From Terriglobales bacterium (GTDB lineage: Bacteria > Acidobacteriota > Terriglobia > Bryobacterales > Bryobacteraceae), in contig JAIXQP010000046.1 of assembly GCA_027485675.1 (NCBI GenBank), positions 1-64,000 on the forward strand: a stretch of 64,000 nucleotides of DNA, written 5' to 3'. A model generated the notes under the pieces. That model had not been told where the DNA came from. It did no database searches and saw only the letters and a program-made list of their open reading frames with translations. Position numbers and translations under genes: made by a program. This document shows positions 7,081-62,478 of the stretch, one piece after another; position 1 is the stretch's first letter; each line of letters starts with the position of its first letter.

Positions 7081-8307
7081 ATGCGGTCGATTTTCCATGT
7101 CGACATGGACGCCTTCTTCGTGTCGGTGGAGGAGCTGTACGACCCTTCGCTGATCGGTAAGCCGGTGGTGGTCGGTGGGGCGGCGGACCAGCGGGGGGTG
7201 GTTTCGGCGGCTTCCTACGCGGCGCGGAGGTTTGGAGTGCATTCGGCGATGCCCCTGCGGACCGCCTACCAGCTTTGCCCGCAGGCCATCTTCGTCGAAG
7301 GGCATCCGGAACGGTACCGGAAGTATTCGAATCTCGTGAAGGAAGTCCTGCAGCAGTTTACTCCGCTCGTGGAGATGGCTTCGATTGATGAGGCTTACCT
7401 CGACATGACCGGGACGGAGCGGCTCCATGGGCCTCCGCTGTTGGCGGCGCATAAGCTCCACAACGCGATCAAAGCCGCGACCGCCTTGAACAACTCGATC
7501 GGCGCGGCCACTTCGCGGCTGCTGGCGAAGGTCTGCTCGGACCAGGCCAAGCCGCATGGCATCGTGTGGATTCCGCCGGGGGCGGAGGCCGCGTTTCTCG
7601 CGCCGCTCGACGTGCGGAAGATTCCAGGAGTCGGGAGGGTCACCGAGCAGAGGCTGCACCGGCTGGGGATCCGGCAGGTGGGCGATCTGGCGACGCTCGA
7701 GCCGAAGTTTCTGGCCGAACACTTTGGCCAATGGGGCCTGGCGTTGGGAGGCAAGAGCAAAGGCCTCGATTCGGGCGGGTGGTTCCAGGGCGAGATCGGC
7801 GAGGAGCAGGACCCGAAGTCGATTAGCCATGAGCATACGTTTTCCGTCGATACCGCGGACGCGGATGCGCTCGAGGCGGCGCTGGCACACTTGAGTGAGA
7901 AGGTCGGGCGGCGGCTGCGGGAGCACGGGCTGTGGGCGCGAACGATTCAACTGAAGCTGCGGTATTCGGACTTCTCCACATTTACCCGGGCGCTGACTTT
8001 GAGCCATGCGACGCAGATCGATACCGAGATCTATCAGACCGCCCGGGACCTGCTGCGGAAGAATCAGAGGCCGGGGGCGCCGATTCGCTTGCTGGGGGTG
8101 CATACGTCCGGCTTTTCGCACGAGGCGGGGCAGTTGGACCTGCTTGATGGCGCACAGCATGAGCGGATGGGCAAGGCGCTGAATGCGATGGACAAGCTGC
8201 GGGATAAGTACGGCGAGATGTCGGTTTCGCTGGCGTTGGGGATGAAGGGACGGTTTAAAGAGCGCACCCACGAGGCGCTACCGAACGACGGGAAGCCGAA
8301 AAAGTGA
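7081..8307 (+). CDS. dinB: DNA polymerase IV (Y-family translesion polymerase)
   Basis: This 408-residue Y-family polymerase copies past damaged DNA. Catalytic acidic residues are visible in HVDMDAFFVSVEE (D8, D10) and SIDEAYLD (about D104-E105). The palm/fingers start (VVVGG, RGVVSAASYAARRFGVHSAMP) and the helix-hairpin-helix region (VRKIPGVGRVTEQRLHRLGI) are canonical, and the little-finger domain fills the C terminus. Length is slightly above the usual 350-ish because of a C-terminal tail rich in Lys/Arg. The ATG follows six Gs, and a TACACT hexamer lies 6 bases upstream of them, so a very short or absent leader is possible. No beta-clamp motif was identified with confidence in the tail. 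murQ starts 14 bases downstream. Confidence 0.97.
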   Translation: MRSIFHVDMDAFFVSVEELYDPSLIGKPVVVGGAADQRGVVSAASYAARRFGVHSAMPLRTAYQLCPQAIFVEGHPERYRKYSNLVKEVLQQFTPLVEMASIDEAYLDMTGTERLHGPPLLAAHKLHNAIKAATALNNSIGAATSRLLAKVCSDQAKPHGIVWIPPGAEAAFLAPLDVRKIPGVGRVTEQRLHRLGIRQVGDLATLEPKFLAEHFGQWGLALGGKSKGLDSGGWFQGEIGEEQDPKSISHEHTFSVDTADADALEAALAHLSEKVGRRLREHGLWARTIQLKLRYSDFSTFTRALTLSHATQIDTEIYQTARDLLRKNQRPGAPIRLLGVHTSGFSHEAGQLDLLDGAQHERMGKALNAMDKLRDKYGEMSVSLALGMKGRFKERTHEALPNDGKPKK

Positions 8308-8321
8308 GATTCTGATAGTTC

Positions 8322-9149
8322 ATGTCTGAGCCTCTTGGCCTGCTGCTGACCGAGCAGCGCAACCCCCGATCGGCCCGCATTGACCAAGTGTCGACGGCCG
8401 AAATGCTAACCATCATCAACGCCGAGGACCGGACGGTTCCCGAGGCCGTTGGCGCGGCGATTCCGGCGATTGCGGCGGTGCTCGACCAGTTGGTCCCGCG
8501 GGTGCAGGCGGGCGGACGGCTGTTCTATATTGGCGCCGGGACGAGCGGGAGGCTGGGGGTGCTGGACGCCTCCGAGTGCCCGCCGACGTTCAGCGTTTCT
8601 TATGAGATGGTTCAGGGAATTATGGCCGGAGGGATGACGGCGCTTTACCAGGCGACGGAGGCGAGCGAGGATTCGCCGGCCTTGGGGCGGGCGGATGTGG
8701 AAGCCCGCGGATTTACGGCGCAGGATACGCTCGTGGGCATTGCGGCGAGCGGACGGACGCCCTACGTGATCGGCGCTCTCGAGTATGCGCGGAGCCTGGG
8801 CGGATTGACGGTGGCGCTGGTGTGCGTGCCGGAGAGCAAGATGGCCGCCGCGGCGGAGTACACGATTGCCGTGCCGACGGGGCCGGAGGTAGTGACGGGG
8901 TCAACGCGGATGAAGGCCGGCACGGCGACCAAGCTGGTGCTGAACATGCTTTCGACGGGGCTGATGATCCGGCTGGGCTATACGCACGGGAACCTGATGG
9001 TGAACGTGCAACCGAAGAATGAGAAGTTGGTGGACCGGGCCATTCGCATTGTCGCCGAGGCGACAGGCGTGGACCGGGCGGAGGCCGAGCGGCTATTCGA
9101 AGCCGCGGGCCGGAATGTGAAACAGGCGATTCAGAATTACCATGGATAA
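8322..9149 (+). CDS. murQ: N-acetylmuramic acid 6-phosphate etherase
   Basis: MurQ cleaves the lactyl ether of MurNAc-6-phosphate to give GlcNAc-6-phosphate and D-lactate in cytoplasmic peptidoglycan recycling. The 275-residue protein is a single SIS domain with the family landmarks RNPRSARID, IGAGTSGRLGVLDASECPPTF, the EDSPALG-like segment, GIAASGRTPYVIGAL and TGSTRMKAGTATKLVLNM. It is about 20 residues shorter than the E. coli enzyme at the C terminus, but all central motifs are present. Its end overlaps the start of murA by 8 bases, so the two are translationally coupled: one enzyme recovers amino sugars from old wall and the other commits UDP-GlcNAc to new wall. Confidence 0.96.
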   Translation: MSEPLGLLLTEQRNPRSARIDQVSTAEMLTIINAEDRTVPEAVGAAIPAIAAVLDQLVPRVQAGGRLFYIGAGTSGRLGVLDASECPPTFSVSYEMVQGIMAGGMTALYQATEASEDSPALGRADVEARGFTAQDTLVGIAASGRTPYVIGALEYARSLGGLTVALVCVPESKMAAAAEYTIAVPTGPEVVTGSTRMKAGTATKLVLNMLSTGLMIRLGYTHGNLMVNVQPKNEKLVDRAIRIVAEATGVDRAEAERLFEAAGRNVKQAIQNYHG

Positions 9150-58306: not shown

Positions 58307-59161
58307 ATGCCTCCTCGCCGACTTGTTCTTGCGGTGCTTGCCAGCCTCTCGTGTGGCCGGTCGAGGATTCGCTCTGTTATCCGTTCCGCCGGATCCGACA
58401 CGGTCGTGAATCTCGCGCAGGCGTGGGCGGAAGCCTATGCCGAACTGGAACCGGCCGTGTCGGTAGAGGTCTCCGGAGGCGGCTCCGGCACGGGACTGGC
58501 GGCGCTCATCGACGGGGCTGCCGATCTGGCCAACTCCAGCCGCCGGATTGAGCCGGAGGAGCGGGCAGCCGCCCAACGCAAACGCGGCGTAGAGCCCGTC
58601 GAATGGATCATCGGTCATGATGCCCTGGCAGTCTACGTGCATCGCGATCATCCGTTGAACGAAATCACCATTCCCCAACTCGCGGCTATGTATGGAGCGG
58701 ACGGCGGCGTCACCCGCTGGTCGCAACTGGGCGCCGGCCTGCCCGACGAGGAGATCATCCTGATCAGCCGTCAATCCAACTCCGGAACCGCCCAGTATTT
58801 CCGGCGCGCGCTGTTGGGCAAACAGGGAGACTTCCGCTCTGGAACCCGCGACTTGAACGGGTCGAAAGAAGTCGTGTCCTTGATCGGCGAAACGATGGCC
58901 GCAATCGGTTATTCCGGCATGGGCTACAACAGCGACCGGGTGAAGATGTTGGCCATCTCGCCGGGTCCCGGCCAACCGGCGTACCCCCCGACGCTGGCAA
59001 ACGCCCTTTCCGGCCGGTATCCGATTTCGCGCCCGCTCTACGTCTATACCCTGGGCCAGCCGGGCGGCGAACTGCGGCGCTATCTCGACTGGACGCTGTC
59101 GCCGCCGGGTCAGCAGGTTGTGATTCGCGCGGGGTTCGTACCCAGGAGGCCCGTGGCATGA
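58307..59161 (+). CDS. pstS: Phosphate ABC transporter substrate-binding protein
   Basis: This 284-residue PstS-type protein binds phosphate outside the inner membrane. Motifs are IRSAGSDTVVNLAQAWAEAY, VSGGGSGTGLAALIDGAADLANSSRRI and ISRQSNSGTAQYFRRALLG, where Ser/Thr/Asp residues coordinate the anion. A signal-like start (MPPRRLVLAVLASLSC) has a Cys that might be lipidated, though the lipobox is imperfect. The stop overlaps the pstC start by four bases, showing coupling with the transporter genes. Confidence 0.93.
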   Translation: MPPRRLVLAVLASLSCGRSRIRSVIRSAGSDTVVNLAQAWAEAYAELEPAVSVEVSGGGSGTGLAALIDGAADLANSSRRIEPEERAAAQRKRGVEPVEWIIGHDALAVYVHRDHPLNEITIPQLAAMYGADGGVTRWSQLGAGLPDEEIILISRQSNSGTAQYFRRALLGKQGDFRSGTRDLNGSKEVVSLIGETMAAIGYSGMGYNSDRVKMLAISPGPGQPAYPPTLANALSGRYPISRPLYVYTLGQPGGELRRYLDWTLSPPGQQVVIRAGFVPRRPVA

Positions 59162-60066
59162 AACCGCTTCGCCGCAATCTGTTTGACCGGTTACCCGAAC
59201 TCCTGATTGAAGGGGTCATCCGGCTCTGCGGGATTAGCGCCATTCTCCTGGTCTTCGGGATCTTTTTCTTCGTCTTTCGGGAAGCGTACGGCCTGTTGCC
59301 GAGCGGCGACTTCCACCTAAGCCACTTCCTGTTCGATACGCATTGGAATCCAGCGAGTCAATCCGGGCCAGCCTACGGCACCTTGGCTCTGTTGGCCGGA
59401 ACGGCGAGCGTCACGATCCTGTCGATGGCCATTGCGATTCCGTTCGGGCTGGGCTCGGCCATCTACCTCTCCGAGTTTTGCGCCCCATACCGGCGCGAGA
59501 CGCTGAAGGTGGTCATCGAAATCCTCGCGGCCATTCCGTCGGTCGTCTGGGGATTTATCGGCCTGATGGTGATGAACCCGCTGATCATCGCCGTCACCGG
59601 CGCACCCATCGGCCTGAACATCCTGAACGGCGGGTTGCTGCTGGCGCTGATGAGCATTCCGATCATTGCCTCGCTCGGGGAGGACGCGCTGAAGGCGGTG
59701 CCGGACTCCTTCCGGGAGGCGGGCCTGGCCCTGGGGGCGAGCCGCTGGCAGTTGGTCTACCGGGTCTTGCTGCCCGCCGCGCGGCCGGGGCTGCTGGCGG
59801 CGGTCCTGCTGGGCCTGGGCCGCGCGGTGGGCGAGACCATGGCCGTGCTGATGGCGACAGGACACAGCGTGCGGGTACCGTCCAGCGTGCTGGATTCCGT
59901 CCGGACACTGACGGCGACCATCGCCGCCGAGTTGGGAGAGGCCTCGGTCGGCTCCCATCACTATCAACTGTTGTTTCTCGTGGGTATCTATCTGCTGGCG
60001 ATCACGTCGATATTCAATTTGGCGGCGGACTATCTGGTCCGTGGGCGCCGCCGGAGTTCGCGATGA
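59158..60066 (+). CDS. pstC: Phosphate ABC transporter permease PstC
   Basis: This 302-residue permease has six predicted membrane helices. The first cytoplasmic-facing EAA loop is PDSFREAGLALGASRWQLVYRVLLPAARPGL. The N-terminal large periplasmic loop and IPSVVWGFIGLMVMNPL are family features. It pairs with PstA to form the channel. ATGA overlap joins it to pstA. Confidence 0.95.
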   Translation: MKPLRRNLFDRLPELLIEGVIRLCGISAILLVFGIFFFVFREAYGLLPSGDFHLSHFLFDTHWNPASQSGPAYGTLALLAGTASVTILSMAIAIPFGLGSAIYLSEFCAPYRRETLKVVIEILAAIPSVVWGFIGLMVMNPLIIAVTGAPIGLNILNGGLLLALMSIPIIASLGEDALKAVPDSFREAGLALGASRWQLVYRVLLPAARPGLLAAVLLGLGRAVGETMAVLMATGHSVRVPSSVLDSVRTLTATIAAELGEASVGSHHYQLLFLVGIYLLAITSIFNLAADYLVRGRRRSSR

Positions 60067-60983
60067 GACCGGTGATGGCGCCCAGTCCCACCGCCCGGCG
60101 ATTCGCCGAAACACCGGCCATCGCCCGGCGGCGCAGGCAGGAGCGGGTGGCCCGGCGGCTACTGGGCGGCGGGCTGATCCTCAGCTTGCTCCCCCTTTTC
60201 GCGATCCTGTTCTACCTGGTTTGGCAGGCGGCGCCGCTGCTTTCCTGGCGCTTCCTCGTCGAGTCGCCGCGGGACGGCATGCGCGCTGGCGGCTTATGGC
60301 CGGCGCTGCTGGGCACGTTGTACCTGGTAGGCGCGGCGCTGGCGGCGGCGACGCCTGTGGGCATTCTGGCGGCCGTCTATCTGAATGAGTACGCCCAGCC
60401 GGGCCGCTTCTCGCGGATCGTGGGATTGGCGGTGATCAACCTGGCCGGCGTGCCGAGCATCGTGCACGCTCTGTTCGGGCTCGGAGCGTTCGTGGCGTTC
60501 GCCGGCCTGGGGCGGTCGATTCTGGCGGCATCGCTGACCTTGGCCGTGATGTCGCTGCCCGTGATCATCGCCAGCACGACGGAGGCGCTGAAATCGGTGC
60601 CGCAGTCGTTCCGGGAAGCGAGTTGGAACCTGGGAGCCACGCGCTGGCAGACCACCTGGCACATCGTCCTGCCCAACGCGATGCCGGGCATTTTCACGGG
60701 CATCATCCTGATGGTCTCGCGCACGGCGGGCGAGACCGCGCCGGTGCTGTTCACCGGGGCCGTCTTCTACAAGTCCATCGCCGGCGGCGACCTGTTCGCC
60801 TACGGCCTGCTCGACCAGTGCATGGCGTTGTCCGTGCACCTGTTCACCGTTTCCACGCAGGTGCCGAACGTGCCCGACGCCTTGCCCTACGCCATCGCGG
60901 TCGTGCTGGTCGCCACCGTGTTGGGGGTGAATGCACTCTCGATTGCCCTGCGCGTTTACTTGCGGAGCCGGAAGAATTGGTAG
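60063..60983 (+). CDS. pstA: Phosphate ABC transporter permease PstA
   Basis: This 306-residue partner permease has the coupling loop VPQSFREASWNLGATRWQTTWHIVLPNAMPGI and the motif AGVPSIVHALFGLGAFV. It begins at the ATG at 60063; the frame upstream is the reverse-context of pstC. Its stop lies inside the 5' end of the first pstB gene (seven-base overlap). Confidence 0.95.
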   Translation: MRPVMAPSPTARRFAETPAIARRRRQERVARRLLGGGLILSLLPLFAILFYLVWQAAPLLSWRFLVESPRDGMRAGGLWPALLGTLYLVGAALAAATPVGILAAVYLNEYAQPGRFSRIVGLAVINLAGVPSIVHALFGLGAFVAFAGLGRSILAASLTLAVMSLPVIIASTTEALKSVPQSFREASWNLGATRWQTTWHIVLPNAMPGIFTGIILMVSRTAGETAPVLFTGAVFYKSIAGGDLFAYGLLDQCMALSVHLFTVSTQVPNVPDALPYAIAVVLVATVLGVNALSIALRVYLRSRKNW

Positions 60984-61735
60984 ACCACATTCTCGAGGTT
61001 GCGGACCTGACGTTGCGCTACGGGGGGCAGACGGCGTTGAACGGAATCTCCTTCGCCGTGCCCCGGTTCGAGATCTTCTCGATCATCGGTCCGGCGCAAT
61101 CCGGCAAGTCGTCGCTGCTGCGGATCCTGAACCGAACGATCGACTTCAATCCGGAAGCCCGCGTCACCGGCAGTGTGCTACTCGACGGCGAGCAGGTGCT
61201 GACGACGCCGCACGTGCATGACTTGCGGCGCAAGGTCGGCATGGTAGCGCCGCTACCGGTGGGCCTGCCCCTGTCGATTTACGACAACGTCGCCTTCGCA
61301 CCGCGGCTGGCGGGCGTCCACAACAAAAGCGATCTCGATGGGCTCGTCGAATCCTGCCTGCGGCAGGCGGCTCTGTGGGACGAGGTGAAAGACCGCCTCA
61401 GTCAGTTGGGAACCCGGCTTTCCGGCGGGCAGCAGCAACGGCTGACCATTGCCCGGGCGCTTTCGCATTCCCCGGATTTGCTGTGTTTGGACGAATTCTC
61501 CATCGCGATCGATCCGGTGACGACGATGCGCATTGAAGAGGTGCTGCGGGAACTGAAGACGAAGATCACCATCATTCTGGTGACGAATCTGATTCAGCAG
61601 GCCCGCCGGCTGAGCGACCGGACGCTGTTTCTGTGGAACGGTTCGATCATCGAGCAGGGAACCACCGAGGCAATGTTTTCCGAACATCCCGCCAACTCGC
61701 TGACCTACGACTACATTCGCGGAGCGTTCGGATGA
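60977..61735 (+). CDS. pstB: PstB-like ATPase 1: canonical signature, degenerate Q-loop and H-loop
   Basis: This 252-residue PstB paralogue starts at TTG (60977), with GGAG nine bases upstream and inside pstA. Compared with E. coli PstB, Walker A is GPAQSGKSS (38-46; Lys44 kept). The Q-loop Gln is replaced by Pro92 (MVAPLP instead of MVFQKP). The signature LSGGQ (148-152) is intact. Walker B is LCLDEF, with Glu173 kept but Pro replaced by Phe. The switch His is Asn204 (VTN instead of VTH). It therefore lacks residues needed on its own ATP-binding face but can complete the partner's site through LSGGQ. The next gene starts within its stop codon. Confidence 0.93.
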   Translation: MVDHILEVADLTLRYGGQTALNGISFAVPRFEIFSIIGPAQSGKSSLLRILNRTIDFNPEARVTGSVLLDGEQVLTTPHVHDLRRKVGMVAPLPVGLPLSIYDNVAFAPRLAGVHNKSDLDGLVESCLRQAALWDEVKDRLSQLGTRLSGGQQQRLTIARALSHSPDLLCLDEFSIAIDPVTTMRIEEVLRELKTKITIILVTNLIQQARRLSDRTLFLWNGSIIEQGTTEAMFSEHPANSLTYDYIRGAFG

Positions 61736-62478
61736 ACTGCATCGAAGTGGATGGGTTGAGCCTGTGGTACGGCGGATTCCAGGCGCTGCGAAACGTCAGC
61801 GTGTGCATCCGGGAGCGGCAGATTACGGCCTTAATCGGTCCATCAGGCTGCGGTAAATCAACGCTGCTCCGCACCTTCAACCGCATCAGCGAGCGGGACC
61901 CGGCGGTGCGCGTGGAGGGCTCGATCCGGATTCACGGAGAGGAGATTTTTGGGCCGGAAGTGTCCCTGATTGCTCTCCGGAAATCGGTAGGGATGGTGTT
62001 TCAAAGGCCCAACCCGCTCCCCATTTCGATTTTTGAAAACGTAGCCTTCGGACTGCGGATCCATGAGGTGGACACTGCGGTGGAGGCTGCCGTCGAAGAG
62101 GCGCTGACGGCGGTGGGTCTGTGGGAGGATCTGCGATTCCGGCTGCATGCGCCGGCAACGGAGTTGGCGCTCGAACAGCAGCAGCGGCTCTGTATTGCGC
62201 GCCTTTTGCCGCTGAAACCGGAGATTATTCTGCTGGACGAACCGTGTTCGGCCTTGGATGCGAAGGCGACCCTGGCGATTGAAGAATTGCTCGGCCGGCT
62301 GGCGGCGCAGTATTCGATTGTGATTGTGACGCACAGCATGGCGCAGGCGCGGCGCGTAAGCAGCGAGTGCTTTTTCATGCTGTTGGGAGAGGTGGTGGAA
62401 CACGGGCCCACCGAGCAGCTTTTCACGAATCCGCGGGATCCGCGCACGGGCGACTACATCGCCGGCCGCTTCGGCTAG
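61732..62478 (+). CDS. pstB: PstB-like ATPase 2: canonical Walker, Q- and H-loops, degenerate signature
   Basis: This 248-residue PstB paralogue has Walker A GPSGCGKST (36-44), Q-loop Gln91 (MVFQRP), Walker B ILLDEPCSALD (Glu170) and switch His201 (VTH). All match E. coli PstB, but the signature LSGGQ is LALEQ (145-149), losing the Ser and Gly that contact the nucleotide gamma phosphate. It overlaps the first pstB gene by four bases, consistent with equal synthesis and heterodimer formation. No phoU follows; the next gene is convergent and overlaps by four bases. Confidence 0.94.
   Translation: MNCIEVDGLSLWYGGFQALRNVSVCIRERQITALIGPSGCGKSTLLRTFNRISERDPAVRVEGSIRIHGEEIFGPEVSLIALRKSVGMVFQRPNPLPISIFENVAFGLRIHEVDTAVEAAVEEALTAVGLWEDLRFRLHAPATELALEQQQRLCIARLLPLKPEIILLDEPCSALDAKATLAIEELLGRLAAQYSIVIVTHSMAQARRVSSECFFMLLGEVVEHGPTEQLFTNPRDPRTGDYIAGRFG

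Follow-up and report, generated by a model that had tools for sequence, protein, structure and literature searches.

The window analysed here, a stretch of 64,000 nucleotides from a Terriglobales bacterium (contig JAIXQP010000046.1), carries a Pst phosphate transport operon that ends in two adjacent genes for PstB-type ATPases, pstB1 and pstB2, in which the motifs of the ATP sites have been lost in a complementary way. Judged from the sequences, all three losses fall on one composite site, that of the PstB1 core and the PstB2 signature, and the other site is complete; a complete ATP site is thereby predicted only for a PstB1-PstB2 heterodimer and for no homodimer. We therefore read the system, with a probability of roughly 0.83, as a phosphate importer that would be powered by an obligate PstB1-PstB2 heterodimer with one hydrolytic and one conserved non-hydrolytic site. 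An earlier note, made from the window alone, had proposed one full and one degenerate site in the heterodimer and none complete in either homodimer, and had suggested looking for the same split in tandem pairs of related Acidobacteria. The motifs of 359 ATPase domains support the proposal, and the split was found in those relatives and well beyond the Acidobacteria. The observation is thus confirmed, and comparative evidence supports its interpretation with a far wider reach than had been proposed; the heterodimer and its one-ATP cycle are predictions.

Two complementary PstB subunits in one operon

The genes and residues concerned are, in the coordinates of the window:
58307-59161, + strand, pstS, phosphate-binding protein (TIGR02136, 210.4 bits against a cut-off of 206.6)
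59158-60066, + strand, pstC, permease subunit (TIGR02138, 275.2 bits against a cut-off of 196.45; 4-base overlap with pstS)
60063-60983, + strand, pstA, permease subunit (TIGR00974, 255.1 bits against a cut-off of 193.45; 4-base overlap with pstC)
60977-61735, + strand, pstB1, ATPase subunit with LSGGQ and without the Q-loop Gln and switch His (TIGR00972, 274.6 bits; overlaps pstA)
61732-62478, + strand, pstB2, ATPase subunit with full Walker A, Q-loop, Walker B and switch His and without LSGGQ (TIGR00972, 316.8 bits)
61250-61252, + strand, Pro92 of PstB1, replacing the Q-loop Gln (by alignment)
61418-61432, + strand, intact LSGGQ signature of PstB1, residues 148-152 (by sequence)
61586-61588, + strand, Asn204 of PstB1, replacing the switch His (by alignment)
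62002-62004, + strand, Gln91 of PstB2, the canonical Q-loop Gln (by sequence and alignment)
62164-62178, + strand, degenerate signature LALEQ of PstB2, residues 145-149, with Glu148 (62173-62175) at position 4
62332-62334, + strand, His201 of PstB2, the canonical switch His (by sequence and alignment)

In PstB1, the Walker A motif reads GPAQSGKS, the Q-loop segment GMVAPLPVGLP with Pro in the place of the Gln, the signature LSGGQQQR, Walker B LLCLDEFSIAID including its Glu, and the H-loop segment VTNLIQQA with Asn in the place of the switch His. The same elements of PstB2 are GPSGCGKS, GMVFQRPNPLP, LALEQQQR, IILLDEPCSALD and VTHSMAQA. The Q-loop and H-loop segments align with ordinary PstBs without any gap, so the substitutions are not alignment slips. 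All the residues that the earlier note had named (LSGGQ at 148-152, Pro92 and Asn204 in PstB1; Gln91, His201 and LALEQ for LSGGQ in PstB2) are exactly where it had put them. Its further statement that the Walker context of PstB1 is altered holds for the flanks of Walker B, with DEF for DEP and SIAID for SALD, and not for the motifs proper, as the Walker A Lys and the Walker B Asp-Glu are present in both proteins. The numbering of PstB1 counts from an in-frame TTG at 60977, which is its likely start: the codon at 60980 is GTA, and two relatives (L004 and L005) have Met at the matching place. A start one codon later would give Pro91 and Asn203.

The five genes, which comprise all five Pst subunits, follow each other on the + strand in the order pstS-pstC-pstA-pstB1-pstB2, and every neighbouring pair overlaps, pstB1 and pstB2 by the ATGA already pointed out in the earlier note. 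PstS, PstC and PstA pass the cut-offs of their own families, and PstB1 and PstB2 are PstB-derived proteins outside the curated TIGR00972 equivalog. We infer from sequence that inorganic phosphate is the substrate of the pump. No further PstB-like ATPase was found in the genome of the window (6.59 Mb, 97% complete), in which the next TIGR00972 match scores 150.7 bits versus 316.2 and 274.0 for the pair.

The AlphaFold2 monomers of PstB1 and PstB2 have a pLDDT (predicted local distance difference test) of 93.4 and 92.1, respectively, and the best PDB match of both nucleotide-binding domains (NBDs), by sequence and by fold, is Escherichia coli PstB (9k3s/9k3x for PstB1), with a query TM-score of 0.90-0.94. 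In these models the motif changes are carried on an intact ATP-binding cassette (ABC) fold. Within the coupling-helix window, type-specific changes affect 8 of 23 conserved columns in PstA versus 1 of 18 in PstC, and elsewhere 29 of 94 versus 11 of 68, PstA being the more diverged there as well (16 canonical PstCs entered the comparison); this is a weak hint that PstA might dock on PstB1.

Motif classes and fixed residues

To sort the 359 domains we used three classes set by the motifs themselves, i.e., the Q-loop Gln kept or lost, the switch His kept or lost, and the signature matching [LMI][ST]GG[QE] or not. Motifs retained within a class are thus built in by definition, as are the canonical Gly at position 4 and, in part, LSGGQ in 133/133 PstB1 domains, while the number of outliers, the replacing residues, the state of the Walker motifs, the order of the genes and the clades from motif-free trees are independent of it. 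The counts exclude copies of <180 residues or <230 bits (outgroup excepted) and the loci L056-L065, which are repeats, and the canonical sample is the top of the PstB1-profile ranking, an uneven sample of PstBs. The PstB1 pattern was found in 133 domains, the PstB2 pattern in 128 and the canonical one in 93 (six of them non-Pst outgroup domains), with three domains that had lost all the motifs and two odd ones; once identical sequences were removed, these numbers became 124, 119, 91, 3 and 2. Just five of the 359 domains fall outside the three classes, and none of those read combines an intact signature with loss of the Gln alone or of the His alone. The odd domains are a PstB2 with VTY (L074) and one broken by Ns (L158).

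Among the 124 distinct PstB1s, the Q-loop Gln position is Pro in 107 and Ala in 17, and the switch His position is Asn in all of them. None has lost the Walker A Lys or the Walker B Asp-Glu, and one has AK for GK. We call the Pro/Asn class, to which the window belongs, type I and the Ala/Asn class type II. Position 4 of the PstB2 signature is acidic in 119/119 distinct sequences (Glu in 101, Asp in 18), and positions 2 and 3 are variable (LALEQ, LQLEQ, LPLDQ, LTGEQ and others). The recurrence of the same kinds of residues in so many distinct sequences of both subunits places the motif changes beyond chance, and the fixation of one new residue per place is unlike what an unconstrained dead site would show. 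The complementary losses on one composite site that mark an asymmetric ABC ATPase were found with L074 as the single exception.

One PstB1 (L163:4524-5273) reads GPAQSAKTS, with Ala for the Walker A Gly before the Lys, perhaps a sign of relaxed ATP demands at the PstB1-core site.

Phylogeny and selection

In trees built with the motif columns removed (16 rows had been left out beforehand, partly for long branches), PstB1 forms one clade (100/97) and PstB2 another (99/95). Type I is nested within both clades and type II is basal, so that in the outgroup-rooted tree the asymmetry looks old, with Ala preceding Pro. Type II as an independent, convergent invention was considered and rejected: it branches first within the very clades of PstB1 and PstB2 that contain type I, which favours a single origin for each subunit. 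The free tree splits PstB1 from PstB2, and a tree constrained to make them sisters, as after one duplication, was not rejected by the approximately unbiased test (p-AU, 0.325). Distances among PstB1s are mirrored by those among PstB2s (r = 0.88 over 33 loci, with a maximum of 0.26 in 1000 permutations; r = 0.82 within the 22 type I loci), as expected of co-inherited genes.

Both subunits are under purifying selection. Among the three closest genomes, the ratio of nonsynonymous to synonymous substitution rates (dN/dS) is 0.035-0.058 for PstB1 and 0.037-0.046 for PstB2, with a high dS (0.67-1.25). The variability of positions 2 and 3 in the PstB2 signature is what one might expect if a duplicated pstB pair were decaying under relaxed selection and had lost its motifs at random, but conservation refutes such a decay and leaves it hardly any probability: dN/dS is about 0.04, the Asn, the Pro/Ala and the Glu/Asp are fixed, and by record title the pairs span about ten phylum-level groups. 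In the same way, the fixed residues, a dN/dS of 0.035-0.058 and the lack of any other PstB-like ATPase found in the genome exclude the possibility, raised in the earlier note, that the changes are private to this genome and a sign of its decay.

Distribution and pairing of the two genes

When 101 genomes (that of the window plus 100 relatives) were searched with PstB1, close orthologues with 95 and 93% identity turned up in two more genomes from the genus, and ones with 65 and 63% in two other genera of the same family; in all four cases PstB2 lies behind PstB1. A profile made from five PstB1s matched 11 of 237 genomes within the family, at 372-519 bits, every other match scoring <=250. A phylum-wide draw gave 37 of 396 genomes at >=351 bits, 20 of which were read residue by residue; ten further genomes, at 271-288 bits, turned out to carry the second class in six cases and canonical proteins in four. 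Draws around a Polyangiaceae and a Desulfosudis genome yielded 17/235 and 6/247 genomes, respectively, by score alone (E <= 1e-100), and one around a Verrucomicrobia genome yielded type I in 6/288, with type II in ten of the next 24 loci read.

The widest view comes from a contig scan of 84,980 species, which returned at least 551 confirmed stretches. Its patterns (DEFSIA[IV]D and PVTTMRIE, confirmed by a 57-residue fragment containing VTN) bias it toward the His-to-Asn class, and the Q-loop, LSGGQ and PstB2 played no part in the selection. In the best 80 of these at least 551 stretches, the ones read at residue level, PstB1 was readable in 78 and PstB2 in 76, all in the PstB1 and PstB2 classes. 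The record titles of the 80 name Acidobacteria, Verrucomicrobia, Lentisphaerae, Planctomycetes, Myxococcales, Desulfosudis/Desulfobacteraceae, Eisenbacteria, KSB1, Poribacteria, Latescibacterota and one alphaproteobacterial metagenome-assembled genome (MAG); the spread over about ten phylum-level groups is taken from these titles, and MAG labels are fallible. Loci recovered through the profile searches fall into the same classes (55 PstB1, 52 PstB2, 71 canonical and one odd).

The genes are nearly always found together. For 126 of the 133 PstB1 copies, the first PstB-type gene that follows on that strand is PstB2, with a median gap of 18 bases between the domains (maximum, 667) and, in one locus, a phoU-like frame between them. 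Six of the other seven have PstB2 or its cut start downstream: L032 and L158 are interrupted by Ns, L074 is the VTY case, in L078 and L088 the partner is cut at the contig end, and in L118 it is present and was missed by the domain filter. The seventh, L090, lies at a contig end. In two loci (L109 and L131), PstB2 is present and PstB1 is cut off or broken.

Within the genus of the window, PstB1 occurs in 3 of 19 genomes, and the other 16 have no PstB-like match at E <= 1e-50 (in one of them, G006, there is a partial match of 133 residues). Pst would thus be patchy in the genus, which suggests gain or loss of the whole operon.

Proposed mechanism and points against it

In the mechanism that we propose, a PstS-PstC-PstA importer would be driven by the PstB1-PstB2 heterodimer. 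The Walker A, Q-loop, Walker B and switch His of PstB2 would form, with the LSGGQ of PstB1, a complete site that hydrolyses ATP, and the PstB1 core, with neither Q-loop Gln nor switch His, would face the L-x-x-[E/D]-Q signature of PstB2 and have no useful rate of hydrolysis. Since PstB1 keeps the Walker A Lys and the Walker B Asp-Glu, this degenerate site probably still binds nucleotide, and it could act as a long-lived hinge that holds the dimer while the other site fires. With one site firing and the other as a hinge, about one ATP would be spent per transport cycle. The acidic residue at signature position 4, which in LSGGQ we take to be the place of G551 in CFTR, is present in every PstB2 read and suggests that this half-site is actively kept off. 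In CFTR, the degenerate site retains ATP for minutes during turnover at the consensus site, and G551D makes NBD dimerisation less efficient (PMC10115640); the title of a reference cited in that paper places G551D and G1349D in signature sequences.

A bolder version is possible, although we lean against it. The pairs may represent an ancient, multi-phylum class of importers that spend one ATP per cycle and whose second site has been rebuilt as a specific non-hydrolytic clamp, where the acidic position 4 of PstB2, facing the Asn and the Pro/Ala of PstB1, may mimic the gamma-phosphate, either without turnover or without nucleotide. If so, the off-state would be a selected chemical design and go beyond mere lost function.

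Several points weigh against an obligate heterodimer with a single hydrolytic site. TIGR00972 is the best family for both ATPases, and with 274.6 and 316.8 bits both stay under its cut-off of 343.2. The predicted structures are those of monomers, and the acidic signature position 4 might prevent, rather than allow, the clamping of nucleotide at the degenerate site. The pair with VTY for VTH in its PstB2 (L074:2303-3058) would have no complete site at all, unless this is a sequence error. In ABCC1, transport stays near wild type when Asn or Gln replaces the active-site H-loop His, and the same source judges Q-loop Gln-to-Asn changes to have no direct link to hydrolysis or asymmetry (PMC7756269). 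Such data would fit a heterodimer in which both sites hydrolyse, with Asn substituting for His, the Q-loop Gln and the LSGGQ glycines dispensable, and an asymmetry that is purely kinetic. So would the retention of both the Walker A Lys and the Walker B Asp-Glu by 124/124 PstB1s, and the importer DppDF, whose two differing subunits both hydrolyse ATP (PMC12136057). We consider this improbable all the same, as three elements are gone together from one site, among them a signature position 4 that is invariably acidic.

A last point comes from Enterococcus faecalis, in which the adjacent pstB genes have partly separate roles: deletions of pstB1 and pstB2 differ, and extra PstB2 compensates for the loss of PstB1, while the reverse fails (PMC12096839). 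PstB1 and PstB2 might, as maybe there, form homodimers with distinct roles in two separate transporters or states. For the pairs described here this is very improbable, because a complete site would be missing from either homodimer, the pair is co-inherited and no other Pst ATPase was found in the genome of the window.

Comparison with known ABC transporters

The system resembles E. coli PstSCAB (9k3s, 9k3x and 9k3y) in its PstS, PstC and PstA families, all above cut-off, and in NBDs that are closest to E. coli PstB. However, each E. coli entry has two chains of one PstB sequence, whereas here there are two co-inherited subunits with complementary losses. Two adjacent pstB genes within one pst operon are also found in E. 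faecalis (PMC12096839) and in Bacillus subtilis (PstBA/PstBB; PMC11466899), where the two proteins appear as one complex in a prediction table (PMC11466899). In contrast to the present pairs, the E. faecalis PstBs keep all four motifs examined (the Q-loop is outside that set), and both of the adjacent copies in Latilactobacillus are canonical.

The pairing of a consensus composite site with one that is non-hydrolytic or impaired is shared with the heterodimeric exporters TM287/288, TAP, ABCG5/G8 and MsRv1273c/72c and with the channel CFTR (PMC7756269 and PMC12038006). The likeness to TM287/288 and TAP that the earlier note had drawn stands at the functional level, but the residues differ. For the degenerate sites of exporters, changes of the Walker B Glu, often together with the H-loop, are described (PMC7756269), whereas the Walker B Asp-Glu is present in 124/124 PstB1s, and what has gone is the Q-loop Gln, the switch His and the signature of the partner. 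Here, moreover, we deal with a binding-protein-dependent importer, and its NBDs are not fused to transmembrane domains as in exporters but encoded by stand-alone genes beside the PstC and PstA permeases. Among importers, one degenerate ATP site has been noted by sequence in RbsA and NupO of B. subtilis (PMC11466899), so asymmetry by itself is no novelty in an importer; these are, unlike the present system, type II importers with a single fused polypeptide that has lost the second Walker A Lys, while the pairs are encoded by separate genes with intact Walker A. DppDF and OppDF are importers that also have two different NBD subunits, but DppD and DppF are both hydrolysis-competent (PMC12136057). 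The earlier note knew of no Pst importer of this build, and we found no description of an asymmetric PstB pair in the literature searched, which was mostly open-access, did not include bioRxiv and was for the most part judged without full reading.

The benefit of a degenerate ATP site has been called unclear (PMC7756269). Canonical PstBs and asymmetric pairs, which sometimes share one genome, offer a natural comparison within a simple importer whose substrate can be measured, and uptake, ATP cost per phosphate and affinity are directly comparable between the two kinds. In many bacteria, the label PstB would cover two functionally distinct subunits.

Genomic context

Among the 102 loci tallied (L085 onward, some of them repeated and many cut by contig ends), 47 are arranged as phoU-pstS-pstC-pstA-B1-B2, and a same-strand phoU-like frame is present in 72. 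This frequent company of phoU, and the third, fully degenerate copy that three loci carry, might speak for one subunit being a pseudo-ATPase that signals, for instance to PhoU, outside the pump. Yet the pair is kept in the window's 97% complete genome, in which no match to the PhoU domain (PF01895) was found (control, 13/14). Besides, PstB1 retains the LSGGQ that its partner needs, and no complete site would remain if either protein were absent, all of which makes a signalling role outside the pump a remote prospect next to the heterodimer.

The three additional copies, PstB-like NBDs that have lost the Q-loop Gln, the switch His and the signature, stand behind PstB1-PstB2 on the + strand (L114:6229-6972, L099 from 6087 and L121:6973-7722). 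The loci belong to two Verrucomicrobia and one Poribacteria, and the copy of L114 clusters with PstB1 in a quick tree.

In 7 of 13 hand-picked pair-carrying genomes of other groups, an ordinary PstB-like protein is encoded elsewhere, at eight places whose motifs are all canonical. The asymmetric pump is therefore a second Pst system in some cases; in the genome of the window it is the sole one found. Downstream of its asymmetric operon, locus L118 has a second frame (7884-8939, + strand) that looks PstS-like by eye.

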